Below are positions 1 through 10,001 of a stretch of 10,001 bases of DNA, piece after piece; within the stretch, counting starts at the first letter, position 1, and each line of letters begins with the position of its first letter. Under the pieces are notes generated by a model that was given only the letters and a program-made list of their open reading frames with translations, ran no database searches and was not told the DNA's origin. Source of the stretch: Anaerolineae bacterium. Its GTDB lineage: Bacteria; Chloroflexota; Anaerolineae; Aggregatilineales; Phototrophicaceae. A program made the translations under genes and the position numbers. The DNA lies in contig JANQRM010000356.1 in the NCBI GenBank assembly GCA_028284565.1, positions 1 to 10,001 of the forward strand, in the 5' to 3' direction.

Positions 1-170
1 AACTGCAATTGCGAATGCCCGCGCATGGTCGGATGCACAAAATAGACATACTTCCCGACATACTGACGGCTGGTGATTTGCGTGACTTCTACATCAGGAT
101 GGCGATGCAAGAGACGTAACAATTCCCCGCCTGTATAACCACTTCCCCCGACGATCCCGACCCGTGTCAT
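1..170 (-). CDS. lysY: LysW-L-2-aminoadipate 6-phosphate reductase (LysY/ArgC family), 5' part only
   Basis: This is the N-terminal part of an NADPH-dependent N-acyl-amino-acid phosphate reductase; it runs off the left edge after about 56 residues. The protein begins [20 protein letters not shown], the Rossmann GxxGYTGxEL motif of the ArgC/LysY family. It continues with HRHPDVEV and [11 protein letters not shown], as expected for the strand after the first nucleotide-binding turn. In the LysW pathway the enzyme reduces the carrier-bound aminoadipyl phosphate to the semialdehyde. The start is the ATG at 170; its ATGA overlaps the lysX stop codon by 4 bp, implying translational coupling. The fragment alone could equally be ArgC. 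The choice of LysY rests on its position directly after lysW and lysX. Confidence 0.88.
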
Positions 171-1045
171 ACACGCACCTCAACTTGTTCTAGTACATAC
201 CGCACGACCTCAGCCGGAATATCCACACCCGTTGGCGCACTGCTATTGCGGAATTCCATCGTGTGATTAATCTCATTCACGAGCAATTGACCATCCGCAT
301 CTTCCAGCAAATCAATCGCCAAAATACCACCTCCAACTGCCTCAGCAGACCGCAGACACAAGTCATTCATTTCGGGTGTCACAGGACAATTACTCGCTTG
401 TCCTCCACGCCCTGTATTCGTAATCCAATGCTCCGATTTCCGATAAATCGCGCAAACCGTCCGATTACCCACCACAAATGACCGAATATCGCGGCCCGGT
501 TTCTCGACATATTCCTGCACGTAATAAATTTGATGCTGATAATTCCCCAAGGTCTGCCGATGCTCCAAAATCGCTTCAGCACTATCAGGATTATGCACCC
601 GCGCCAGCAAACGTCCCCATGAACCAGTCACAGGTTTCAACACCGCCGGATAGCCTATCTCTTCAATCGCATTCATTGTCCGCTCTGGGGTAAATGCCAG
701 ATGGGTTGTCGGTTGTGGGATGTTCTCTTGTGCCAACGCCAAGCTCGTCAGCAATTTATCGCCACATACCGAAGCCGTTTCATAGGTATTCAGCGTCCGC
801 ACACCCCAACGATTCAATATCGCCAAAGCATATAATCCGCGTGATGTACTCACACAACGTTCCAGCACCAAGTCATAATCCGACCATGCCACACCAGATG
901 GCGCAAGTTGTTCAGCTCCCCGTGTCACGTCAAAATGCAAATCACGGTCTAGCAGAATATCCGGCTCAACCCCGGCTTCACGAAAGGCATTCACCAGCAA
1001 TTTCTCTTCGACTCGCAGATGGGTAACGAGAAAGGCAATCCGCAT
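167..1045 (-). CDS. lysX: Alpha-aminoadipate--LysW ligase LysX (ATP-grasp)
   Basis: ATP-grasp ligase of 292 residues that joins the amino group of 2-aminoadipate to the C-terminal glutamate of LysW, the first committed carrier step of this lysine route. Visible features from the chosen start are an N-terminal Rossmann-like lobe, the GDKLLT segment (Lys97), the [17 protein letters not shown]-binding loop (about 135-148), the [10 protein letters not shown] segment (210-219) and the metal/ATP motif [12 protein letters not shown] (257-268). Length is normal for LysX/ArgX/RimK-like ligases. I chose the ATG at 1045 over an in-frame TTG at 1057. The ATG overlaps the lysW stop codon by one base (TAATG), and [11 protein letters not shown] is the usual family beginning. 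The 3' end overlaps lysY by 4 bp. A dual lysine/ornithine role (ArgX-like) is possible, but the lysine-codon leaders upstream favour lysine. Confidence 0.92.
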
Positions 1046-1221
1046 TATTCGCCCCAATCCTCTTCAACTTCTGGCGCAAGGTCGAGTTCAAGCGGATTCA
1101 ATGAGATGATTTCCAACTCTGCACCACAATCCGGGCAAGACACCAACTCGTTCTCCATCACATCTGACGGAATCGGCACCTCTGCATAGCATTCTGGGCA
1201 TAAAGGGGTATTGGTACTCAT
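1045..1221 (-). CDS. lysW: Amino-group carrier protein LysW
   Basis: Small acidic carrier protein of 58 residues, missed by length-limited gene finding. It starts [15 protein letters not shown] and has two CxxC pairs (CPEC at 8-11 and CPDC at 29-32), forming the zinc knuckle seen in LysW. It ends in EDWGE, the conserved C-terminal motif whose terminal glutamate is the attachment point for 2-aminoadipate. LysX, LysZ, LysY, LysJ and LysK act on the carrier-bound intermediate. The ATG at 1221 is preceded by a strong Shine-Dalgarno sequence (AGGAG, 6-7 bases upstream). The stop overlaps the lysX start by one base. It is the first structural gene after the long leader with the two lysine-rich peptides. 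Confidence 0.95.
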
Positions 1222-1345: not shown

Positions 1346-1381
1346 AAAAAACCGCCACCCAGAGCGTTCCAGATGGCGGTT
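1346..1381 (-). terminator. Intrinsic terminator of the second lysine attenuator
   Basis: On the minus strand AACCGCCA (1381-1374) pairs perfectly with TGGCGGTT (1357-1350) around a 16-base loop, and the 3' arm runs into a six-T tract (1351-1346). It lies 28 bases after the stop codon of the second lysine-rich leader peptide and about 125 bases before lysW. It therefore sits inside the leader of the lys operon and would abort transcription before the structural genes. Its loop contains GAACGC (1369-1364), complementary to GCGTTC inside the leader peptide gene (1421-1416). This is a candidate antiterminator contact. Confidence 0.8.
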
Positions 1382-1408
1382 GTGATGAGCATCAATTTGC
1401 CAGCACAC

Positions 1409-1477
1409 TTATCCAGAACGCGAGTTCGGCTTCATCTTCTTACAGCTTTTCTTTGTGATACTGTTGGTCATAGTCAT
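1409..1477 (-). CDS. Second lysine-rich leader peptide (22 aa)
   Basis: Short reading frame starting at the ATG at 1477, with a Shine-Dalgarno GGAG seven bases upstream. An in-frame ATG at 1471 is an alternative start. After MTM the product reads TNSITKKSCKKMKPNSRSG. Five of 22 codons encode lysine (AAG AAA, AAG AAG, AAG), clustered at codons 9-16. It is followed by the terminator at 1346-1381 and then by lysW. Right after the last lysine codon, CCGAAC (1429-1424) can pair with GTTCTGG (1419-1413), a protector-type 1:2 hairpin. A ribosome waiting on lysine codons would cover its 5' arm. The peptide itself probably has no function beyond sensing charged lysyl-tRNA. This is inferred from codon content, position and structure. 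Confidence 0.78.
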   Translation of the reverse strand: MTMTNSITKKSCKKMKPNSRSG

Positions 1478-1490
1478 CCCGTTACTCCTA

Positions 1491-1518
1491 AAAACGAAAA
1501 ACCACCTCGGTGGGCGGT
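1491..1518 (-). terminator. Intrinsic terminator of the first lysine attenuator
   Basis: On the minus strand ACCGCC (1518-1513) pairs with GGTGGT (1506-1501), including one G-U pair, around a six-base loop. It is followed by TTTT, CG and TTTT (1500-1491). It lies 51 bases after the stop codon of the first leader peptide and just before the Shine-Dalgarno of the second. Its 5' arm overlaps CGCCCAC (1516-1510), exactly complementary to GTGGGCG (1566-1560) next to the first leader's stop codon. Terminator and antiterminator are therefore mutually exclusive. Both leader terminators start their 5' arm with ACCGCC. Confidence 0.75.
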
Positions 1519-1579
1519 CTCGTTTGTAATGATTGTCTGCTCATCCGAGCAAGCCAAAACGCCCACACCTTAAGGTTGG
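1510..1579 (-). promoter_or_regulatory. Alternative RNA pairings of the first attenuator (1:2 and 2:3)
   Basis: Segment 1, CCAACC (1579-1574), pairs with segment 2, GGTGTGG (1569-1563), around a TTAA loop holding most of the leader stop codon. Segment 2 also supplies GTGGGCG (1566-1560), which pairs over seven bases with CGCCCAC (1516-1510) in the 5' arm of the terminator. A ribosome stalled on the lysine codons would mask segment 1 and free segment 2 for antitermination. A ribosome reaching the stop codon would mask segment 2 and let the terminator form. A further 5-bp hairpin, TGCTC-GGAT-GAGCA (1551-1538), sits between them. Found by eye, not folded computationally. Confidence 0.65.
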
Positions 1580-1620
1580 TTCGTCTTCTTGGCTTTTTTG
1601 GTGAACATGACAGAGGACAT
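1570..1620 (-). CDS. First lysine-rich leader peptide (16 aa)
   Basis: Reading frame MSSVMFTKKAKKTNQP, start ATG at 1620, stop TAA at 1572-1570. Codons 8-9 and 11-12 are lysine (AAA AAA, AAG AAG). A GAGAGAG stretch about five bases upstream can act as ribosome binding site. The peptide lies about 30 bases downstream of a candidate promoter. It is followed by mutually exclusive RNA pairings and a terminator, the layout of amino-acid-operon leader peptides. Its TKKAKK core resembles TKKSCKK of the second leader, suggesting the attenuator module was duplicated. Leader-peptide attenuation of lysine genes is, as far as I recall, known from Thermus thermophilus, which uses the same LysW pathway. 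Confidence 0.76.
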   Translation of the reverse strand: MSSVMFTKKAKKTNQP

Positions 1621-1654: not shown

Positions 1655-1684
1655 ATCATATCAAGAATGCCACAAAAGCCTCAA
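1655..1684 (-). promoter_or_regulatory. Candidate sigma70-like promoter of the lys operon leader
   Basis: On the minus strand TTGAGG (-35, 1684-1679) is followed after 18 bases by TATGAT (-10, 1660-1655). This gives an expected start near 1648 and a 5' leader of about 28 bases before the first lysine-rich peptide. The match is 4/6 and 5/6 to consensus. Position relative to the leader peptide is what makes it credible. Confidence 0.5.
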
Positions 1685-1865: not shown

Positions 1866-3284
1866 CTAATTCAAATTCAACACCATCAATCGCAATTCGG
1901 TCATTTCTTCCATCGTATACTTCACACCCTCACGACCAAATCCCGACTCCTTAATCCCACCATAGGGCATATGATCCACACGGAATGTCGAAACACTGTT
2001 GACCTGCAACCCACCAACCTCAATCCGATTCCACGCATCCATAATCCTCTTCATATCATTCGTAAACACACCCGCTTGCAAGCCATATGGCGTATCATTA
2101 ATCATCGCCACCGCATCATCCCATGTCTGATAAGGTGTCAATGTCACCACTGGCGCAAAAATCTCTTCACAACGCACCTTCATATCATCGGTTGTTTCCG
2201 TCATCACCGTTGGATAAAACATTGCCCCTTCACGTTGATTACCATACAACACATTCGCACCCGCACTCACCGCATCAGCCACCCATGATTCTGCTCGTTC
2301 TGCATCCTCCAGCGTAATCATTGGACCCACATCGACATCCGCATCTCTCGGATCACCAACAACGAGTTGTTTTGTGCCTTCGATGAAACGGTCAGCAAAT
2401 TCCTCAAACACATCATGCTGAATCAACATCCCTTGTACCGAAATGCAATTCTGCCCCGCATTAGTATAGCCACCTGCAACCGACTGAGCCACTGCAATTT
2501 CCAAATCCGCATCCTTATGTACGATCACACCCGCATTACCGCCAAGTTCCAACGCCACCCGTTTATTTCCAGCCAGCTTCTTCAACATCCAGCCAACTCT
2601 TGCACTGCCTGTAAAGCTCAACATGGCAATTCTTGGGTCTTCTACCATTTTACCAGTCTGCTGTCCCCAAGCATTCAACATGCTATAGGCTTCGGGTGGA
2701 TAACCCGCTTCCAACACCAACTCCGACAAAATCACAGAGGATAAGGGTGTCTTTTCCGCAGGCTTCAGAATAATTGCATTCCCACTCGCAATCGCGGGAC
2801 CTATCTTATGACACGCTAGATTCAGTGGATAATTAAACGGTGTAATGCCTAGCACAATCCCAATTGGCAACCGCTTAGTAAAACCTTGCCGATTCACCCC
2901 AGCCGATGTCCAATCAATATCAAACACCTCGCCTTCCATTCGACGCGCCTCTTCCGCAGAGACCTTAATCGTCTGCAATGCCCGTGTTGTCTCGCCCACT
3001 GCCACCTTGCGATTTTTGCCCCCTTCCATAATCATCGCATTAGCAAGATCATCAAAGCGTTCCTTCATCAACCGATGAAGGTTCTCAAGAATTTCTGTTC
3101 GCTTATAACTTGGCAATTGACGTGTGATTTCAAAGCCCTTCTGTGCCTTGACAATCGCATCTTCCATATCCTGCTCACTTGCCATATAAACTGACCCAGA
3201 AACTGAGCCGTCATATGGGAAAATCACATCCAATGTTTCATTCGTTTCACGCCATTCACCACCAACCAAAATCTTTTCTGGCAT
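1866..3284 (-). CDS. NAD(P)-dependent aldehyde dehydrogenase (GapN/lactaldehyde dehydrogenase-like)
   Basis: Aldehyde dehydrogenase superfamily enzyme of 472 residues, full length for the family. It oxidises an aldehyde to its acid through a cysteine thiohemiacetal. Visible motifs are GITPFNYPLNL with the oxyanion Asn151, the cofactor Lys174 in ILKPAEKTP, FTGS (224-227), the general base Glu246 in ALELGGN, and the nucleophile Cys280 in GQNC. The C-terminal PYGGIKESGFGREG segment is also typical. The PFNYPLNL context and size resemble the branch holding non-phosphorylating glyceraldehyde-3-phosphate, lactaldehyde and similar dehydrogenases; the substrate cannot be read from sequence. The start has GGAG eight bases upstream. 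It is the last gene before the terminator. With glycerol kinase in the same cluster, a C3-aldehyde substrate is plausible but unproven. Confidence 0.88.
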   Translation of the reverse strand: MPEKILVGGEWRETNETLDVIFPYDGSVSGSVYMASEQDMEDAIVKAQKGFEITRQLPSYKRTEILENLHRLMKERFDDLANAMIMEGGKNRKVAVGETTRALQTIKVSAEEARRMEGEVFDIDWTSAGVNRQGFTKRLPIGIVLGITPFNYPLNLACHKIGPAIASGNAIILKPAEKTPLSSVILSELVLEAGYPPEAYSMLNAWGQQTGKMVEDPRIAMLSFTGSARVGWMLKKLAGNKRVALELGGNAGVIVHKDADLEIAVAQSVAGGYTNAGQNCISVQGMLIQHDVFEEFADRFIEGTKQLVVGDPRDADVDVGPMITLEDAERAESWVADAVSAGANVLYGNQREGAMFYPTVMTETTDDMKVRCEEIFAPVVTLTPYQTWDDAVAMINDTPYGLQAGVFTNDMKRIMDAWNRIEVGGLQVNSVSTFRVDHMPYGGIKESGFGREGVKYTMEEMTELRLMVLNLN

Positions 3285-3357: not shown

Positions 3358-3456
3358 TCAATCACGAAAATCTGCAAAAGTTTTAATGTCTCGACCTCGT
3401 GCCAAAATCATATCAATCAATTGTTCCCATGCTGATAACATCTCCCGATTACCCCC
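3358..3456 (-). pseudogene. Out-of-frame C-terminal tail of the deacetylase gene
   Basis: Adding one G to the run of five at 3452-3456 (minus strand) lets the deacetylase frame continue for about 30 codons to a stop at 3360-3358. The tail reads NREMLS, then AWEQLIDMILARGRDIKTF, then ADFRD. It looks like genuine protein: amphipathic, non-repetitive and ending like other deacetylase-family proteins. The repaired protein would have about 262 residues and the gap to the aldehyde dehydrogenase gene would be 73 bp. The cause may be a real mutation or a sequencing/assembly error in the homopolymer. Confidence 0.75.
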
Positions 3457-4145
3457 GACCAATCATAGAAAAACGTCCAATAATGATTAGTCAAAACAAG
3501 TAGAGGCTCATCATCCAGCCGTTTTAAAGATGTCTCCAATATCGTTTCTGGATTCTCCCGATGCGTCCACAAATATTCATCACAAGTGAAGATGTTTTGT
3601 TGCCCAATCTGATATTGTCGATAACTTGTCACATCCTCAATCAAATGCTTCACACTCTCCGACTTCGTACTCAAATCATAGCCAGCATTCAGCACTTTCC
3701 CAACAGCAATCTCAGATAGTTGGTCATAGGGTGCAATAAACGTGGTGATATTTGCCTGTGGAAATGTCGCTTCCAACAGCTGTTGCCCATCAGACAATTT
3801 CTGTGTAATCTTTGCTTCATCCTCAGAATGAAACTCAAAGAAACCATGACAATATCCATGCAAACAAATCTCAACCAATCCCTGACGCACTAAGTCATTA
3901 AGAAACACACAGAGTTCTTGATTTTCGGTGATTGAAAAGTTTGTGTCTTGTCCACGATAGGCAATGGCAATGCTGGGGTCAATCGGCTGCCCTTCACGAT
4001 ACGCTACTCGCGCATTCCCGTTCTGTGCCGGAATCACCGCCAAGCAAACCGGATGATTCGCTTCCCACAATCTGCCATAAATTTGCTCTAATTGCTTCGG
4101 GTGAGTAAAGAAACTAATATCATCATCACGGATAATCACTGTCAT
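3417..4145 (-). CDS. Polysaccharide-deacetylase-like (DUF2334-type) protein, probably frameshifted
   Basis: Reading frame of 242 residues as it stands. The beginning MTVIIRDDDISFF carries the RDDD motif (6-9) of NodB-like carbohydrate esterases, whose aspartates act as base and metal ligand. HGYCHG (His96, His100) supplies the metal-binding histidines, and FIAPYDQLS (137-144) corresponds to the conserved strand lining the groove. NHYWTFFYDW (220-229) is near the end of the domain. Family members remove acetyl groups from amino sugars or act on related amides. The ATG at 4145 lies 5 bp after the neighbouring deaminase-like gene, so the two are probably co-translated; no clear Shine-Dalgarno is seen. 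The last about 11 residues (from 232) look non-native because of a frameshift at 3452-3456. Substrate unknown; a link to amino-sugar use is inferred from the neighbour. Confidence 0.75.
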   Translation of the reverse strand: MTVIIRDDDISFFTHPKQLEQIYGRLWEANHPVCLAVIPAQNGNARVAYREGQPIDPSIAIAYRGQDTNFSITENQELCVFLNDLVRQGLVEICLHGYCHGFFEFHSEDEAKITQKLSDGQQLLEATFPQANITTFIAPYDQLSEIAVGKVLNAGYDLSTKSESVKHLIEDVTSYRQYQIGQQNIFTCDEYLWTHRENPETILETSLKRLDDEPLLVLTNHYWTFFYDWSGVIGRCYQHGNN

Positions 4146-4150
4146 GAGTT

Positions 4151-4996
4151 TTAGAGAATGTATTTTGGTGAATTCAGCGTGTCGCCATCGGTCACAATCG
4201 TATAATCCAAATCACGAATATGCGTCACTGGATAATCATCCCCAGGTTGACCCAGCAATGCCAAACGCAACACCGTATTCGCCCAATCAAAATCCGTCCC
4301 ATTCCGACAATACAACCGTATTTTTCGGGATGACAATATCTCCTTCATACCCAAGGTATAGGCATAGCGTGGAAAGCCTTCCAAATTTCCTCCAACTTGC
4401 GCCCGAATTGCATTAATCGTCACCGTGAAATCATTCAACCGTACTTTCCGAACAGTCGAAAATTTCACCCCAGCTTCCGGCTCATTAAATGCCACATGCC
4501 CATGTATGCCTATGCCACCGTAGCAAGTGTCAATCCCACCGACATCAGCGATCGTCTGTGCTAAAGTATCAACATTTTCCTCATTCGGAAAAAAGACTTG
4601 CGCTCGGTTCAAACCCACTTCATTCGATAGCTTCCCCAAAAACAAATCCTCAGCTATCCACCGAAAACTCAAGGGATGACTCGCATCAAATACTTTGCCA
4701 AACTCAGTACAATACTCATCCATGAAGAAGATCCAGCAATCTGCTAGCGAAATATGATCTCGATGAATCCGCTCCACGAGATACTCATACTGTCCCGTCG
4801 GACCCACAGGCAAAATCAGTCGTGTCGGTTGATCAGCTCGATTATTTGCCTGTATCTCATCAGCAATATCATCCGCCATCCGTCGATGGAGGGAATCCAA
4901 ATCCGCGCATACAACCAGACGCTCGCCTGCCAATTCTCGTACCTCATCTGGAGACATCCGCAAAAGCTGACAAATCTCCTCTGCCCGACTAACCAT
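4151..4996 (-). CDS. Glucosamine-6-phosphate deaminase/isomerase-like protein (NagB family)
   Basis: Protein of 281 residues of the NagB/RpiA/SugI-like fold. NagB converts glucosamine-6-phosphate to fructose-6-phosphate and ammonia in the cytosol. Conserved parts are ILPVGPTGQYEYLVERI (61-77) at the phosphate loop, FFMDEYC with Asp93 (equivalent to the E. coli ring-opening base Asp72), and GIHGHVAFNEP with His167 and Glu172. The residue aligned with catalytic Asp141 of E. coli NagB is His165 here, and the phosphate loop differs from the usual GSTP form. It therefore belongs to a divergent branch and may act on another amino sugar phosphate. The ATG at 4996 follows the macro-domain gene after 2 bp, with AGGG a few bases upstream. 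The next gene, a deacetylase-like protein, fits amino-sugar breakdown. Confidence 0.8.
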   Translation of the reverse strand: MVSRAEEICQLLRMSPDEVRELAGERLVVCADLDSLHRRMADDIADEIQANNRADQPTRLILPVGPTGQYEYLVERIHRDHISLADCWIFFMDEYCTEFGKVFDASHPLSFRWIAEDLFLGKLSNEVGLNRAQVFFPNEENVDTLAQTIADVGGIDTCYGGIGIHGHVAFNEPEAGVKFSTVRKVRLNDFTVTINAIRAQVGGNLEGFPRYAYTLGMKEILSSRKIRLYCRNGTDFDWANTVLRLALLGQPGDDYPVTHIRDLDYTIVTDGDTLNSPKYIL

Positions 4997-4998
4997 AT

Positions 4999-5838
4999 CT
5001 AACCCTGTTGCAGACGTGAAATCTCTTCGCTGATATTGATAAGCTCATTCTTGATACGGTCAATCTCTTCAGCTTGAGTCATTTTGTCAGGATTGTCATT
5101 CGATGTTCTAGCGTAGGCTTCCTCCCACGTATCCAGACGTTCATACAGTTGTTGCTGTTTGGTTTTCAGGTCATTTAACCGACGAATCGTCTTCGCATCA
5201 ATTTTGGTCGCTGTCACTTCCTCAACACTGGGATCATCCGAATGCTCAGGCACAATCCGCGTCCGATTCGGATCATTATCCACTTTGATACTGGCATCAT
5301 AAATACGGGTCAGTTCTTCGTTGGGTAACTTGCCTTTGCGAATCACAACATCCACGCGACGCAGGTTCGTATTGCGATTATCCCGAATATACAATGCTAT
5401 CTGGTTCACCATACTTGTCATGCAAGTTTCAAAATTCAAGCCACCAGTTCCGGCTCCAAAAGCAGGCATCCCAATCGTTCGCGCATTCAGCAAATCTGCT
5501 AATTCCAAGCAATTATTCACCAAATCCCGAATAATGCCCTCATCAGGATAGATAATACCCTCGTCGCCACCCTGAAAAGCCATCGTGATGCCATGAAAAA
5601 TATACTTTGCGGTCAAATCACCTGACGAAGTAATCCCCACGCCACTAATCGGCAAGGGTGTCAATTTACGCGCTTCGTTACGGATAAATTCTTCACCTGC
5701 CGCAATCGCAATCGCCTTCGATACACCACGACGCATATTTAGCACATTGTCATCTGAACTGACCAGCACCTCCGCTGGAAACATCGCCAAATCGCCAATG
5801 ACAATCCGCACCCGTGTATTATTGATTTTCCCATTCAC
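4999..5838 (-). CDS. Macro-domain protein with C-terminal coiled coil
   Basis: Protein of 279 residues. Residues about 8-170 form a macro domain, which binds ADP-ribose or related ligands. Landmarks are GDLAMFPAEVLVSSDDN (15-31), MRRGVSKAI (35-43), ITSSGDLTAKYIFHG (69-83) and IGMPAFGAGTGG (122-133), matching the VNAAN, GGGV, A..T..G.L....IH and P..GtG.gG positions of the family. The usual asparagine-rich VNAAN is VSSDDN and the GGG turn is MRRG, so binding or hydrolysis cannot be assumed. After a polar linker, residues about 215-277 are charged and heptad-like, predicting a coiled coil for oligomerisation or partner binding. The start is GTG at 5838 with GGAG ten bases upstream. It lies 21 bp after glpK and 2 bp before the deaminase-like gene. 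Role in the operon unknown; ADP-ribose sensing or removal is an inference. Confidence 0.78.
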   Translation of the reverse strand: MNGKINNTRVRIVIGDLAMFPAEVLVSSDDNVLNMRRGVSKAIAIAAGEEFIRNEARKLTPLPISGVGITSSGDLTAKYIFHGITMAFQGGDEGIIYPDEGIIRDLVNNCLELADLLNARTIGMPAFGAGTGGLNFETCMTSMVNQIALYIRDNRNTNLRRVDVVIRKGKLPNEELTRIYDASIKVDNDPNRTRIVPEHSDDPSVEEVTATKIDAKTIRRLNDLKTKQQQLYERLDTWEEAYARTSNDNPDKMTQAEEIDRIKNELINISEEISRLQQG

Positions 5839-5859
5839 GAACTATTCGCTCCTTTATCC

Positions 5860-7344
5860 TTACTCTTTCGCCCATGATTTAGCACGTTCAACCGCCCGTT
5901 GCCAACCTGCATACAACGCCTCACGCTCATTCATGGACATCTTCGGTTCAAAGGTATGTTCCACTGCCCACTGACGCGCAATCTCCTCTTGTGATGACCA
6001 GAAATCCACCGCCAAGCCTGCTAGATATGCTGACCCCAATGCCGTCGTCTCAGTCACTGCTGGACGTTGCACTGGAACACCTAAAATGTCCGCTTGGAAT
6101 TGCATCAGGAAGTCATTCGCCACTGCACCACCATCCACTTTGAGAGCCTCCAACTCCAAACCTGAATCAGCGCGCATCGCATCCACCACATCTCTTGACT
6201 GATAGGCAATCGACTCTAAGGTTGCACGGACAATATGCGCCCGACCACTGCCTCGTGTCAAGCCAACAATCGTTCCACGCGCATACTGATCCCAATACGG
6301 CGCGCCCAATCCCGCAAATGCTGGAACCAAATACACGCCATCTGAACTCTCGACACTTCTCGCAATGGCTTCCGTTTCACTCGCATCACTGACCAGTTTC
6401 AACTCATCCCGCAACCACTGCACCGCCGCACCTGCAATGAAGATACTACCCTCCAGTGCATACTGCATCGCTTCATCGCCCACTTGCCATGCAATCGTCG
6501 TCAGCAGATTATTCTTCGATGTCGCCGCTTCTGTGCCTGTGTTCATGAGCATGAAACAACCCGTGCCATAGGTATTCTTCGCCAAGCCGGGTTCATAACA
6601 GGCTTGCCCAAAAGATGCCGCTTGTTGGTCACCTGCGATGCCTGCAATCGGAATCGGCTTCCCAAACCACTCCGCATCCGTCTCACCATACACTTGACTA
6701 CTCGGCACAACCGTTGGCAACAAGGATTTGGGGATATTCAATCGCGCCAGAATCTCATCTGCCCATTGCCGTTGATGAATATCAAAGAGCAAGGTCCGTG
6801 CCGCATTGCTGACATCTGTGATATGCAAGCGTCCACCTGTCAATTTCCAAATGAGGAAACAATCCACCGTCCCAAATGCTAATTGTCCAGCTTCCGCTTT
6901 TTCTCGCGCACCCTCGACATTATCGAGTAACCATGCCAACTTCGTTCCAGAAAAATAAGCATCCGTTACCAAGCCAGTCTTTTCCAGAATCGTCTTATCA
7001 AAGCCCTCAGCTTTTAAGGTGTCACAAAAGTTCGAAGTCCGTCGATCTTGCCACACAATCGCATTATGAATCGGTTCGCCGGTTTCTCTGTCCCAGATAA
7101 TCGTCGTCTCACGTTGATTCGTAATCCCAATCGCCGCGATGCTATCCACATTATCCACCACATCCTGCGCGACCTTAATTTGCGTCTGCCAGATTTCATT
7201 AGGATTATGTTCCACCCAGCCGGGCTTTGGATAAATCTGTGGGAATTCTTGCTGAGAAGTTTTGACAACCCGTCCATCATGATTAAACAGAATCGCCCGC
7301 GACGAAGTCGTGCCTTGATCCAACGCCAAAATCAGTTCCGACAT
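5860..7344 (-). CDS. glpK: Glycerol kinase
   Basis: FGGY-family kinase of 494 residues, full length (family about 500), phosphorylating glycerol to sn-glycerol 3-phosphate with ATP in the cytosol. The protein begins [20 protein letters not shown] with the phosphate-1 loop. TNQRET (Arg78, Glu79) and WQDRRT (98-103) contribute to the glycerol site. The catalytic Asp239 is in [10 protein letters not shown], and [12 protein letters not shown] (259-270) and [17 protein letters not shown] match the C-terminal ATPase lobe. These motifs specify glycerol rather than xylulose or gluconate. The start has AGGA nine bases upstream. A candidate promoter and a palindrome lie in the 78-bp gap before it. No glycerol facilitator or GlpD is in the window. 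Confidence 0.96.
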
Positions 7345-7366
7345 ACAAAAATATCCTTGTGTAAAA

Positions 7367-7378
7367 ATGACTAGTCAT
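7367..7378. promoter_or_regulatory. Perfect 12-bp palindrome before glpK (candidate operator)
   Basis: ATGACTAGTCAT is an exact inverted repeat ending 23 bp before the glpK start codon. It would lie a few bases downstream of the start site of the weak promoter at 7389-7417, a usual place for a repressor site. In RNA it could also form a short hairpin before TTTTT, but four A+T-rich pairs make a terminator unlikely. The regulator is unknown. Confidence 0.4.
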
Positions 7379-7388
7379 GAATAACTTG

Positions 7389-7417
7389 AGTTTAATCGCT
7401 TTAGGGATGGGATGCAA
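7389..7417 (-). promoter_or_regulatory. Weak promoter candidate for glpK
   Basis: On the minus strand TTGCAT (7417-7412), a 17-base spacer and TAAACT (7394-7389) give a 4/6 and 4/6 match to sigma70 consensus in the 78-bp gap between the VOC gene and glpK. The support is mainly its position together with the palindrome just downstream. Confidence 0.3.
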
Positions 7418-7422
7418 AAGCC

Positions 7423-8193
7423 TTAAGCCAAATTAATTCGCAAACCATGTGTATAGGATTCATCTAGCAAACCCGCTTTTGATTGGTCACTTTTATGCAG
7501 AGTGATTTCATAGGGCGCATTTGGACGGAGGTGCAAATGCCGTTCCATCTCCGCATCCATCGGCACACGAATCCGCACGCGAGTCTCACCCAACAAGAAA
7601 CATTCTGTGCCTTCTTCATCCACCTGTGGCTCAACATTCAGCAATGTCTGATAGCGCGCAATACCTGTATGCAACTCATCCACAAGAAACAACACCTCCG
7701 CAATGCCCGTCACACCATTCGGATGAGTCACCTTGCCATCTGTCATTGGCACACGCAATTCACGCGGAGTTTCGTCTTCAATCAACAAGGGCAAATGATT
7801 GTCAACAAATGCCAACTTCCAACGCAATAATTCCCCATCAGGACGCGCCCGACTCCCCGCTTGCACATCACTCACCGACACACCTCGTTCTCGCAAGGAC
7901 GCAGCATCCGTATCTAAATCACCTGATAGCAAGGCATACCCAATCGGACCTTCTTCCTCCACAAACAAAGTGGCAAAATCCAGCGCATCATTGGATGGTG
8001 ACTCGCCCGTCAATGCCATCAACTCCAGATAACTGCCATCGGCAAAGTTCATCAGCGTGTTATGTGTCGTCCCCGCCGCATGTCGTCCCCCATAATAGAC
8101 CGTGAAGCCCAATTCACGGAAATGTGCTGTCGCCAATTCCAAATCATCGACTGTCAAGATGAGATGGTCGAATCGAAAGCTATCACCAGACAT
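7423..8193 (-). CDS. Glyoxalase-like VOC-family protein
   Basis: Protein of 256 residues with a vicinal-oxygen-chelate fold. The N-terminal half starts RFDHLILTVDDLELATAHF, with His10 as likely metal ligand. It is followed by LGFTVYYGGRHAAGTTHNTL (28-47) and FADGSYLELMAL (50-61), where Glu57 is a second likely ligand. The GGRH-GT-N and YLEL pattern is that of Glyoxalase_3-type proteins (PF13468). The second half (about 155-245) looks like a diverged repeat. Members bind a divalent metal, but their substrates are mostly unknown; isomerases, dioxygenases and lyases share the fold. The ATG at 8193 is 2 bp after the ribokinase stop, without an obvious Shine-Dalgarno, so coupling to the ribokinase gene is likely. 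Family sure, function unknown. Confidence 0.8.
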   Translation of the reverse strand: MSGDSFRFDHLILTVDDLELATAHFRELGFTVYYGGRHAAGTTHNTLMNFADGSYLELMALTGESPSNDALDFATLFVEEEGPIGYALLSGDLDTDAASLRERGVSVSDVQAGSRARPDGELLRWKLAFVDNHLPLLIEDETPRELRVPMTDGKVTHPNGVTGIAEVLFLVDELHTGIARYQTLLNVEPQVDEEGTECFLLGETRVRIRVPMDAEMERHLHLRPNAPYEITLHKSDQSKAGLLDESYTHGLRINLA

Positions 8194-8195
8194 AT

Positions 8196-9128
8196 TTAGA
8201 AGATTTCATCTTGATGCTGTTGGATAAACGTCTCCACCTCTTGACGAGCGGGCATACTCTCCGACGCACCCTTACGTGTTACCGCCAGCGCACCTGTCGC
8301 ATTAGCAAACACCATCGCATCGTGCAACGACTTCCCTTCTGCAAGACCAACTGCCAAGCCCGCGTTAAAGGCATCACCACCACCGACAGCATCCACCGCC
8401 TTCACCATAAACGCCGACACACTCCCTTCGCTTTCATCCTTCTTCACCCACAGCGACCCAAATGCCCCCAAGGTCACAATCGCCGTCTGTGTTTTATTGA
8501 TTAACAAATGCTGGGCGATATTCTTCGCTGTTTCGCCGTGGTGTCCTGTCAGTTTCTCGGCTTCTGTTTCATTCGGTGTGATATAGTCCACGACATTCAT
8601 CAGCTGTTCGGGTAACTTGCCAGTTGCAGGCGCAGGATTCAAAATCGTTTTCACCCCATTGTCATGAGCTAGCTTCAGCGCATAGTAGACTGTCTCTTGA
8701 GGTACTTCCAATTGCGTTAGCAAAACATCCGCTTGAGCAATGACATCTTTTGCTTTGTCGATATGCTCTGGCTTAAGATGAGCATTCGCACCCGATGCCA
8801 CCGCAATCATGTCTTCGCCCGAATCTTCCACAAATATGGAAGCAACACCTGTTCCATGATTGGGGTCTTTCACAACAAAATCCGTGTTGATGTTATCCCG
8901 TTCCCACACACGATGCGCCATCTGAGCAAATTGGTCATTCCCAATGCTACAGATAAACGTCGTCTCTGCACCCAGCCGCGCGACTCCAACGGCTTGATTT
9001 GAGCCTTTCCCACCCGGACCTGTGACAAAGCGATGCCCCACCACCGTTTCCCCCATCTGTGGTAATTCCGGCATATACATGACCAAGTCCGTATTAAAAC
9101 TCCCCACAACAACAATTTTGGGTGGCAT
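8196..9128 (-). CDS. rbsK: Ribokinase
   Basis: PfkB-family sugar kinase of 310 residues, phosphorylating D-ribose to ribose 5-phosphate. From the chosen start the protein reads MPPKIVVVGSFNTDLVMYMP. It carries GPGGKGSNQAV (37-47, first PfkB signature), NPAPA, ITPNETEAEKL, and VDAVGGGDAFNAGLAVG with catalytic base Asp252 (second signature; GGGD instead of the commoner GAGD anion hole). I chose the ATG at 9128 over an upstream in-frame start at 9185. AGAGGAA lies about six bases before it, the extra 19 residues have no family counterpart, and a good promoter (9165-9193) overlaps that extension. The stop is 2 bp from the VOC gene. Other PfkB substrates (for example deoxyribose) are possible. No ribose transporter is present here. 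Confidence 0.9.
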   Translation of the reverse strand: MPPKIVVVGSFNTDLVMYMPELPQMGETVVGHRFVTGPGGKGSNQAVGVARLGAETTFICSIGNDQFAQMAHRVWERDNINTDFVVKDPNHGTGVASIFVEDSGEDMIAVASGANAHLKPEHIDKAKDVIAQADVLLTQLEVPQETVYYALKLAHDNGVKTILNPAPATGKLPEQLMNVVDYITPNETEAEKLTGHHGETAKNIAQHLLINKTQTAIVTLGAFGSLWVKKDESEGSVSAFMVKAVDAVGGGDAFNAGLAVGLAEGKSLHDAMVFANATGALAVTRKGASESMPARQEVETFIQQHQDEIF

Positions 9129-9164
9129 GTTGATTCCTCTCCATAACCCGCGAACCGTGCCACC

Positions 9165-9193
9165 AGTATAGAAAGTTTCTGACACTCTAGCAA
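9165..9193 (-). promoter_or_regulatory. Sigma70-like promoter for the ribokinase operon
   Basis: On the minus strand TTGCTA (9193-9188), a 17-base spacer and TATACT (9170-9165) match consensus at 4/6 and 5/6 with ideal spacing. The expected transcript start is near 9158, about 30 bases before the ribokinase ATG at 9128. It lies in the 75-bp gap after the EamA gene, and it argues against the longer ribokinase start at 9185. Confidence 0.55.
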
Positions 9194-9203
9194 AGGAAGA
9201 TGA

Positions 9204-10001
9204 CTACAAGAACAACAATCCTGTCCCAGCAAACGCCAATATAGTCCCTAAGATCGCGCGTTTGGTTATCGTCTCTCTAAAGACGAAGTAACCTACCGGA
9301 AGCAAGAATATTGGCGTGAGACTCATCAAGGTCGATGCCACCCCCACCGGCGCACGTTGCACCGCCACCAATGATAACCACACCCCCAACACTGGACCTG
9401 TCACTGTGCCAATAGACATAAATTTCAATGCGCGTGGATTGGCTTTGAGTTTGACATATCCCACCATCACCTGACCCTGCATCGCTGTCCATATCCATAT
9501 CGTCGTCGTCGCAAAGATGATCCGAATCAAATTCGCAGAAAAAGCAGAGAAATCCCCGTCTAACCCAAACTTAGACAACACCAAGCCCCCCGCTTGTCCC
9601 GATGCACCCCCAAACGCAAAAATTAAACCCAGCATATAGGGCGTTACCCACTTGGGGAGAGGAAATCGTTTCCGCTTCGGCTGGGTATCCAACAGAGTCT
9701 TATCATCCGACGCATTCCCACGCTCAGACACAACCCACATGATGCCGCCAATTGTCAATGCCATCCCCGCGAGTTCAAGCTCCGTTAAGGTCTCGTCCAA
9801 AAAGAGAAACGCCAGCACAGCCCCCAACACGGGAGCCAATGCCATAATTAACATCGACAACCGTGGACCAATCATTACGAAGGCTTGGAACAGAAAGGCA
9901 TCCCCCAATGCCAAACCCACCACACCAGAAATCCCCAACCAGAACCAACGTGAGAGGTCGGCATCCAATGGCAACACCTGCCCAAAACTCAGCGTATGAA
10001 T
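9204..10001 (-). CDS. EamA/DMT-superfamily permease, 5' end cut by the window edge
   Basis: C-terminal 265 residues of an inner-membrane drug/metabolite transporter with two EamA repeats. The frame stays open to the window edge (upstream codons read IHTLSFGQ), so the GTG at 9977 is not the start. Visible hydrophobic segments include WFWLGISGVVGLALGDAFLF, LIMALAPVLGAVLAFLFL followed by DETLTELELAG (end of repeat one), and MALTIGGIMWVV. A charged linker (QPKRKRFPLPKW) leads to the second repeat, with LGLIFAFGGASGQAGGLVL, IRIIFATTTIWIW, VLGVWLSLVAVQRAPVGVAS, LTPIFLLPVGYFVF and AILGTILAFAGTGLLFL. The APVLGAVLAFLFLDE and PVGVASTLMSLTPIF blocks are EamA signatures. Substrate unknown; amino acids, sugars or nucleotide derivatives are all possible. 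No terminator is seen before the ribokinase promoter. Confidence 0.88.
   Translation of the reverse strand: MHTLSFGQVLPLDADLSRWFWLGISGVVGLALGDAFLFQAFVMIGPRLSMLIMALAPVLGAVLAFLFLDETLTELELAGMALTIGGIMWVVSERGNASDDKTLLDTQPKRKRFPLPKWVTPYMLGLIFAFGGASGQAGGLVLSKFGLDGDFSAFSANLIRIIFATTTIWIWTAMQGQVMVGYVKLKANPRALKFMSIGTVTGPVLGVWLSLVAVQRAPVGVASTLMSLTPIFLLPVGYFVFRETITKRAILGTILAFAGTGLLFL

Follow-up and report, generated by a model that had tools for sequence, protein, structure and literature searches.

Introduction

The locus described here raises the question of whether one lysine biosynthesis operon is governed by two lysine attenuators placed one behind the other. In trp/his-type leader-peptide attenuation, a short frame with codons for the end product is combined with an antiterminator that competes with an intrinsic terminator, and the attenuation model outlined in PMC1183508 treats one leader and one terminator. 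In contrast, two full cassettes for one amino acid stand here in series before one operon.

The window, which is the whole stretch of 10,001 nt analysed, comes from an Anaerolineae bacterium. The original prediction read two Lys-codon frames, each followed by a terminator, as a double lysine attenuator upstream of lysW. All of these elements are present on the minus strand (Table 1), and the reading is supported, since relatives retain both peptides, their Lys codons and the stems, with compensatory changes. The alignment of relatives that had been set as a test thus bears the prediction out, and in three relatives the pair also precedes homocitrate synthase. It is very likely that two complete ribosome-mediated lysine attenuators stand in series before the lysWX operon.

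Organization of the lysWX Leader

Both cassettes are complete. On the minus strand they follow a promoter-like site and precede lysW-lysX, and each has a Lys-codon frame and then an intrinsic terminator. Each combines a frame with end-product codons, whose translation is predicted, with an intrinsic terminator before the first gene and an antiterminator that excludes this terminator and forms from the segment covered by a ribosome at the stop codon. The claimed similarities hold: TKK..KK is found in the two cores and ACCGCC in the two terminators. A Shine-Dalgarno-like sequence had been predicted at each frame; that of leader 2 holds (5/6 matches), whereas that of leader 1 is poor (3/6).

Table 1. 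Features of the lysWX locus and its leader, numbered as in the window.
Feature	Coordinates	Strand	Evidence
Aldehyde dehydrogenase gene, upstream of the leaders, co-directional	1866-3284	minus	window
Terminator-like hairpin behind the aldehyde dehydrogenase gene	1836-1808	minus	looser caller; absent from the main terminator scan list
Promoter-like TTGAGG-18 nt-TATGAT, with a TG preceding the -10; leader transcription putatively starts here	1655..1684	minus	9/12 matches
Leader peptide 1, MSSVMFTKKAKKTNQP then stop; regulatory Lys codons AAA AAA GCC AAG AAG	1570..1620	minus	like leader in 67/68 group members
Protector hairpin, cassette 1, joining AAGCCAA of the Lys codons (1595-1589) to UUGGCUU (1557-1551)	1551..1595	minus	part of the minimum-energy leader fold
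Region 2 of cassette 1, GUGGGCG just past the stop codon; antiterminator 5' strand	1560..1566	minus	pairs with 1516-1510 (7 pairs), duplex -14.7 kcal/mol; covariation
Region 3 of cassette 1, CGCCCAC; common to antiterminator and terminator 5' arm	1510..1516	minus	pairing, covariation
Intrinsic terminator 1	1498..1521	minus	terminator scan; terminator after leader 1 in 67/68 group members
Shine-Dalgarno AGGAG of leader 2, right behind the T tract of terminator 1	1485..1489	minus	SD 5/6
Leader peptide 2, MTMTNSITKKSCKKMKPNSRSG then stop, 22 aa; Lys codons AAG AAA .. AAG AAG AUG AAG	1409..1477	minus	relatives often KKxQSKKP..RSG-stop
5' strand of the cassette 2 antiterminator (region 2), GCGUUCUGGAU, spanning the R-S-G codons plus the initial stop-codon base	1411..1421	minus	pairs with 1374-1364 (11 pairs, including G-U), duplex -19.4 kcal/mol
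Region 3 of cassette 2, AUCUGGAACGC; common to antiterminator and terminator 5' arm and loop	1364..1374	minus	pairing, covariation
Intrinsic terminator 2, 14 pairs	1350..1381	minus	terminator scan; stem covaries
lysW, amino-group carrier protein of lysine synthesis	1045..1221	minus	TIGR01206 60.1 bits, cut-off 53.2
lysX, lysine biosynthesis protein LysX	170..1045	minus	TIGR02144 327.3 bits, cut-off 275.6

Signal scans of the window are of limited weight on their own. The promoter scan lists the site at 1684-1655 and one other, at 1754-1725, where 1.8 are expected by chance; the former is at chance level by the scan alone and weak by consensus. Among the 28 relatives with paired cassettes, the best promoter score upstream of leader 1 averages 8.79 versus 8.30 in shuffles, a slight excess. 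Within 900-2000, the terminator scan finds only 1521-1498 and 1381-1350, two versus 1.2 expected from shuffles, which is weak on count alone. Terminator 1 of the window has many G-U pairs and is weak (-9.1 kcal/mol for its 20-nt core), and terminator 2 is strong. The cassette 1 leader, protector hairpin included, folds better than all of its shuffles (z -4.02, 0/200), and cassette 2 folds moderately better than its own (z -1.94, 7/200). No Rfam family, the lysine riboswitch included, matches the window at its gathering score.

A perfect 14-bp palindrome, TTTACCGCGGTAAA (1251-1264), lies downstream of terminator 2 and ahead of the lysW ribosome site and looks operator-like. It is the sole match in the window at up to three mismatches, 49/200 shuffles have one, and it is absent from all 187 loci compared. 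A G+C-rich imperfect inverted stretch at 1291-1330 resembles an inserted small element. It brings the distance from terminator 2 to lysW up to 128 nt, where most paired relatives have about 30-90 nt and loci L046, L048 and L053 have 170-249 nt. A 13-mer of the stretch occurs in 0/187 loci. Given their absence from the 187 loci, the palindrome and the insert were dropped as parts of the mechanism. Further upstream, 3417-9977 encodes, all on the minus strand, a DUF2334 protein, a 281-aa protein with no Pfam match at the threshold used, a Macro-domain protein, an FGGY carbohydrate kinase, a Glyoxalase_3 protein, a PfkB kinase and an EamA transporter.

Competing Pairings and Leader Geometry

Pairing was assessed in two alignments. 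Alignment A1 holds 26 of the 28 cassette-2 sequences (L003 and L064 were omitted as poorly alignable), and alignment A2 holds 36 of the 67 cassette-1 sequences, leaving out L050 and 30 single-cassette rows of the window’s neighbour group. The antiterminator helix is paired in 94.2% of 208 cells in cassette 2, with 16 cells changed on both sides, and in 86.0% of 286 cells in cassette 1, with 24 double-changed cells; 0/500 shuffles reach these values in either cassette. Slid versions of the cassette 2 helix are at most 48.1% paired, and its covariation covers the eight alignable pairs. When antiterminator partners are swapped between loci, 0/2000 permutations match the loci’s own total in either cassette. 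Two coarser measures, the number of pairs with a double change and the number of further pair types, are not clearly above shuffles: they are reached by 71/500 and 194/500 shuffles, respectively, in cassette 2 and by 50/500 and 36/500 in cassette 1.

The terminator 2 stem also covaries (22 cells, 0/500 shuffles). Terminator 1 has no covariation in the window’s register of alignment A2; slid by one column it fits the other rows, with 84.5% of cells paired and 11 changed on both sides. The protector helix (1:2) of cassette 1 pairs better with its own partner than with swapped ones (0/2000), and its covariation is not significant, as 95/500 shuffles reach the double-change count. The same helix in cassette 2 has no own-partner advantage (992/2000 permutations) and was dropped for lack of support. 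In leader 2, the codons R-S-G and the stop are themselves the antiterminator strand, which can explain their conservation.

The spacing between codons and helices is regular. The last core Lys lies 12 nt from the stop codon in 46/67 cassette 1 sequences and 18 nt in 20/28 of cassette 2. A stall with the A site at the first core Lys codon leaves the antiterminator available, at a mean of -13.5 kcal/mol in cassette 1 and -17.6 kcal/mol in cassette 2; with a ribosome on the stop codon the means are -4.9 and -4.5 kcal/mol. Masking at the stop codon costs at least 5 kcal/mol in 60/67 (cassette 1) and 28/28 (cassette 2) sequences relative to a stall on the first core Lys, and in 60/67 and 26/28 relative to a stall on the last. 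For the window, such masking takes the antiterminator from -14.7 to -6.8 kcal/mol in cassette 1 and from -18.3 to -3.7 kcal/mol in cassette 2. A shuffled region 2 still pairs, at a mean of -8.8 (cassette 1) and -11.9 kcal/mol (cassette 2), so that part of the energy is due to composition and the energies alone overstate the case.

Conservation of the Cassettes in Relatives

Relatives were collected by LysX as the best 80 of 295 matches, which is not an even sample. In 80/80 loci, lysW starts 159-346 nt before lysX. The midpoint-rooted LysX tree separates a group of 68 (67 loci and the window) from 13 outgroup rows. Cassette 1, a Lys leader followed by a terminator, is found in 67/68 group members, with a degenerate copy in L050; the cores of relatives read KKAKK, or KKVKK, KKSKK, KKDKK and similar. 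Cassette 2 is present in 28/68, often with the core KKxQSKKP..RSG-stop. By label, the 68 comprise 28 pairs, 38 members with only cassette 1, and L043 and L050 with degenerate remains; two cassettes are therefore not necessary. The paired label changes nine times on the LysX tree and is spread widely, and the single label changes eight times. The window adjoins a 31-row group in which only L003 has retained the pair. The cassette 2 copies of L003, L051 and L054 were added by hand, and four false terminators were removed by hand.

In the 13-locus outgroup, L068, L070 and L076 are paired but carry another leader type, the second leader of L070 being recognized by eye. L073 and L080 have one cassette-2-like leader (by eye), L072 and L075 have one other leader, and no leader was found in 6/13 loci. 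The records of L053, L058 and L073 bear the labels Bacteroidetes, Pleurocapsa and Halieaceae. All three have lysWX with Lys leaders, and on the tree they fall among Chloroflexota rows; these assemblies are probably mis-binned or mislabelled.

Lys-rich leaders before lysine genes had been called hard to explain by chance. The window alone is suggestive rather than compelling in this respect, since two short frames with at least four Lys in eight residues occur in 50/5000 Markov shuffles of the 420 nt upstream of lysW, or about 1%. A chance origin is removed by conservation and not by the single sequence: across the 67 members with a module, regions of up to 500 nt upstream of lysW hold a mean of 1.28 Lys-rich frames in sense versus 0.03 in antisense and 0.023 in shuffles.

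The core Lys codons of the curated set are mostly AAG (236 AAG to 31 AAA in cassette 1 and 107 to 18 in cassette 2), unlike those of lysX in the 80 loci (240 AAG to 230 AAA). The Lys codons of the window lie at 1599-1585 in leader 1, where two of four are AAA, and at 1453-1430 in leader 2. Base-pairing requirements, or a selectively charged tRNA-Lys species, could lie behind the AAG bias of the leaders. In L016, a short, mobile-looking repeat with the core GTAGGGGCGTATGGCAATACG follows each of the two terminators, in equivalent places.

A Second Lysine Gene and Spread Within Anaerolineae

Covariance models R1 (built from cassette 2) and R2 (from cassette 1) were run over 14 relatives’ genomes. 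In G002 and G012, both cassettes stand before homocitrate synthase (TIGR02146, above cut-off); G015 has the pair there with its first leader cut by the contig end. G031 has one cassette before homocitrate synthase, and its lysW (L061) likewise has one. The arrangement thus recurs at two genes of the pathway. Homocitrate synthase was found in 34/37 genomes, and 30 upstream loci were examined, 26 of which have no cassette. An open run of at least 100 aa lies upstream in 23 of these 26, so homocitrate synthase is probably inside an operon there.

Across the class, R1 matches 106/298 genomes at E <=1e-4, some of the matches covering the terminator part only. In some inspected loci, lysW or homocitrate synthase is preceded by a lone leader of the KKxxSKKPDxxSG type. 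Further pairs stand before lysW in G150 and G207, and less complete ones before homocitrate synthase in G093, G120 and G039. L173 and L174 have a pair before homocitrate synthase in which the second hairpin is not followed by an evident T tract. In L175, where the caller found no module, both leaders are poor in Lys; these three are paired leaders by eye and not proven pairs. L097 and L116, which matched R1/R2, were rejected as not leaders.

A class-wide survey drew 140 genomes evenly, 91 of them with lysW over the cut-off, and took 86 upstream regions (83 of at least 300 nt); G002, G004, G020, G021 and G035 were omitted as already in the set (L002, L016, L057, L058 and L068). Two modules were found in seven of the 86, one in 16 and none in 63. 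Controls gave modules in 0/86 antisense and 0/258 shuffled sequences. On the curated loci the caller finds two modules in 22/28 pairs and one in 36/39 singles, and it misses one G150 cassette, so 7/86 is a lower bound. Perhaps some of the 63 module-less upstreams belong to a lysW inside an operon. The original prediction had called two attenuators in series unusual, a description weakened by this recurrence of the paired state within Anaerolineae.

Origin of the Paired Cassettes

The shared core and terminator motifs had been taken to suggest duplication of a module. The cassettes are alike beyond shuffles (mean score 4.2 versus -17.7). However, own cassette pairs are hardly closer than cross-locus pairs (245/2000 permutations do as well as the true pairing), which leaves either an old common origin or convergence as the source of the likeness. 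The window’s own pair ranks 3/28 for likeness, and no direct repeat was found in 1222-1700. Recent duplication of one cassette into the other within the group is thus unsupported. R1 matches cassette 1 and R2 matches cassette 2 (61/81 sources searched), which fits a common origin; these cross-matches do not prove it, because terminator hairpins in antisense score too (down to E 1e-4 with R1).

Genome G207 offers a different case. At 492-1072 of L177, lysW is preceded by one Lys leader in two nearly identical versions, KKGNEKPDPGSG and KKASKKPDPGSG, a clear and more recent cassette duplication. At least four leader types can be told apart by eye among the pairs of the group, the outgroup, the survey and G207. 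To judge from these leader types, pairing seems to have arisen more than once.

Proposed Mechanism and Alternative Explanations

In the proposed mechanism, transcription would begin at the upstream promoter, both leaders would be translated, and RNA polymerase would have to pass both terminators to reach lysWX. When charged tRNA-Lys is scarce, a ribosome would stall on the Lys codons and leave the segment at and behind the stop codon free. The free segment would pair with the 5' arm of the terminator as an antiterminator, and transcription would continue. Because leader 2 RNA exists only once terminator 1 has been passed, the two read-through probabilities are expected to multiply. With plentiful lysine, leakage would then be the product of two small numbers, and under full starvation read-through would still be high. 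The series arrangement may thereby give lower leakage and a wider or steeper response. The trp attenuator leaks 10-15%, according to the account in PMC1183508; if a single stage here leaked about as much, two stages would leak 1-2%.

The conserved Q, P, R, S and G residues of leader 2 (KKxQSKKP..RSG) would matter in their own right if cassette 1 sensed lysine and cassette 2 another signal, and Salmonella mgtCBR, as described in PMC3641672, is a precedent for such unlike signals. Against this, RNA structure can explain these residues, given that R-S-G-stop is the antiterminator strand and that the Q-S codons can pair behind the stop. Lys is the clustered residue in both leaders, and related KKxQSKKPDxxSG leaders stand alone before lysW or homocitrate synthase, so a second signal appears unlikely. 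It is also rather improbable that only one cassette functions and the other is a relic nearing loss, as in the sister group. This reading would account for the 38 group members with cassette 1 only, for the branching of the window next to the single-cassette group, and for L003, which within that group has a decay-like cassette 2 (R1 score 44.4 versus 60.5-123.3 for the 26 model rows, L003 excluded). In the window, however, both antiterminators are intact, cassette 2 keeps its 11 pairs through changes on both strands and scores 77.3 bits with R1 (it is one of the model’s source rows), and its terminator is strong. Paired cassettes also persist in well separated branches.

Separate promoters could yield two transcripts with one attenuator each instead of a series. 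Such an arrangement would sit well with the weak promoter calls and with the 8/28 pairs whose gap of at least 39 nt between terminator 1 and leader 2 leaves room for an intervening promoter, with best scores of up to 8.5. Across relatives this gap is 10-76 nt; in 20/28 pairs it is below 38 nt, too short for a promoter and a Shine-Dalgarno sequence, which would place both cassettes on one transcript, in series. It measures 28 nt to the inner ATG of leader 2 in the window (20 nt to the outer ATG), with no promoter-like site listed there, and separate transcripts are accordingly quite improbable. The co-directional aldehyde dehydrogenase gene could likewise make the two hairpins its ordinary terminators, preceded by chance Lys-rich frames. 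That gene has a terminator-like hairpin of its own by the looser caller, and the Lys frames, the spacing and the antiterminators are kept before lysW in relatives and before homocitrate synthase, which leaves this explanation with practically no probability. Two lysine attenuators in series remain the preferred reading.

Relation to Known Systems and Significance

The LysW-pathway cluster of Thermus thermophilus has a lysine leader attenuator. By description, it resembles the present cassettes in its Lys codons, its leader peptide and its pathway, and differs in that only one leader is known for it. A search of open-licence papers found none on the Thermus attenuator. Over the same scope, which makes for weak evidence, no report of a LysW-pathway leader in Chloroflexota and none of same-amino-acid leader-peptide attenuators in series was found. 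A word search of the text of PMC1262725, on Actinobacteria, gave neither ‘tandem’ nor ‘two attenuators’.

Other leaders contain two elements of some kind. Salmonella mgtCBR has tandem leader frames for ATP and proline and is termed a singular example in the pertinent section of PMC3641672, which contrasts it with metE and its two presumed terminator sites. Like the present locus, mgtCBR has a leader containing a pair of short frames that affect transcription. It responds to unlike signals, whereas here the same codon recurs in both leaders and two intrinsic terminators are present; with both leaders Lys-rich, the sequence points away from an mgtCBR-like two-signal response. Tandem riboswitches, such as that of B. 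clausii metE cited in PMC3641672, and the double T-boxes that PMC9413887 mentions before amino-acid genes also place two sensor units in series before one gene. In those systems the RNA binds the ligand or tRNA directly, whereas the proposed sensor here is a translating ribosome. A second terminator is also noted for some rimP leaders in PMC2965389.

The arrangement is real and conserved, and it is very probably a tandem lysine attenuator that doubles a textbook mechanism, with lysine as the expected signal. On balance, we lean slightly towards a broader interpretation, in which the doubling of same-signal attenuators in Anaerolineae is recurrent and selected. Different leader types would have given rise to it, or served to rebuild it, on several occasions, both at lysW and at homocitrate synthase. 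The resulting two-stage lysine gate, with less leakage and a steeper response, would take the place of a trp-type repressor plus attenuator. Same-signal units in series would offer a natural way to test if attenuators are multiplied in cells to cut leakage or to sharpen a response, and single and paired versions are available side by side in related genomes. The cassettes additionally supply a marker of the lysine regulon for uncultured Chloroflexota.
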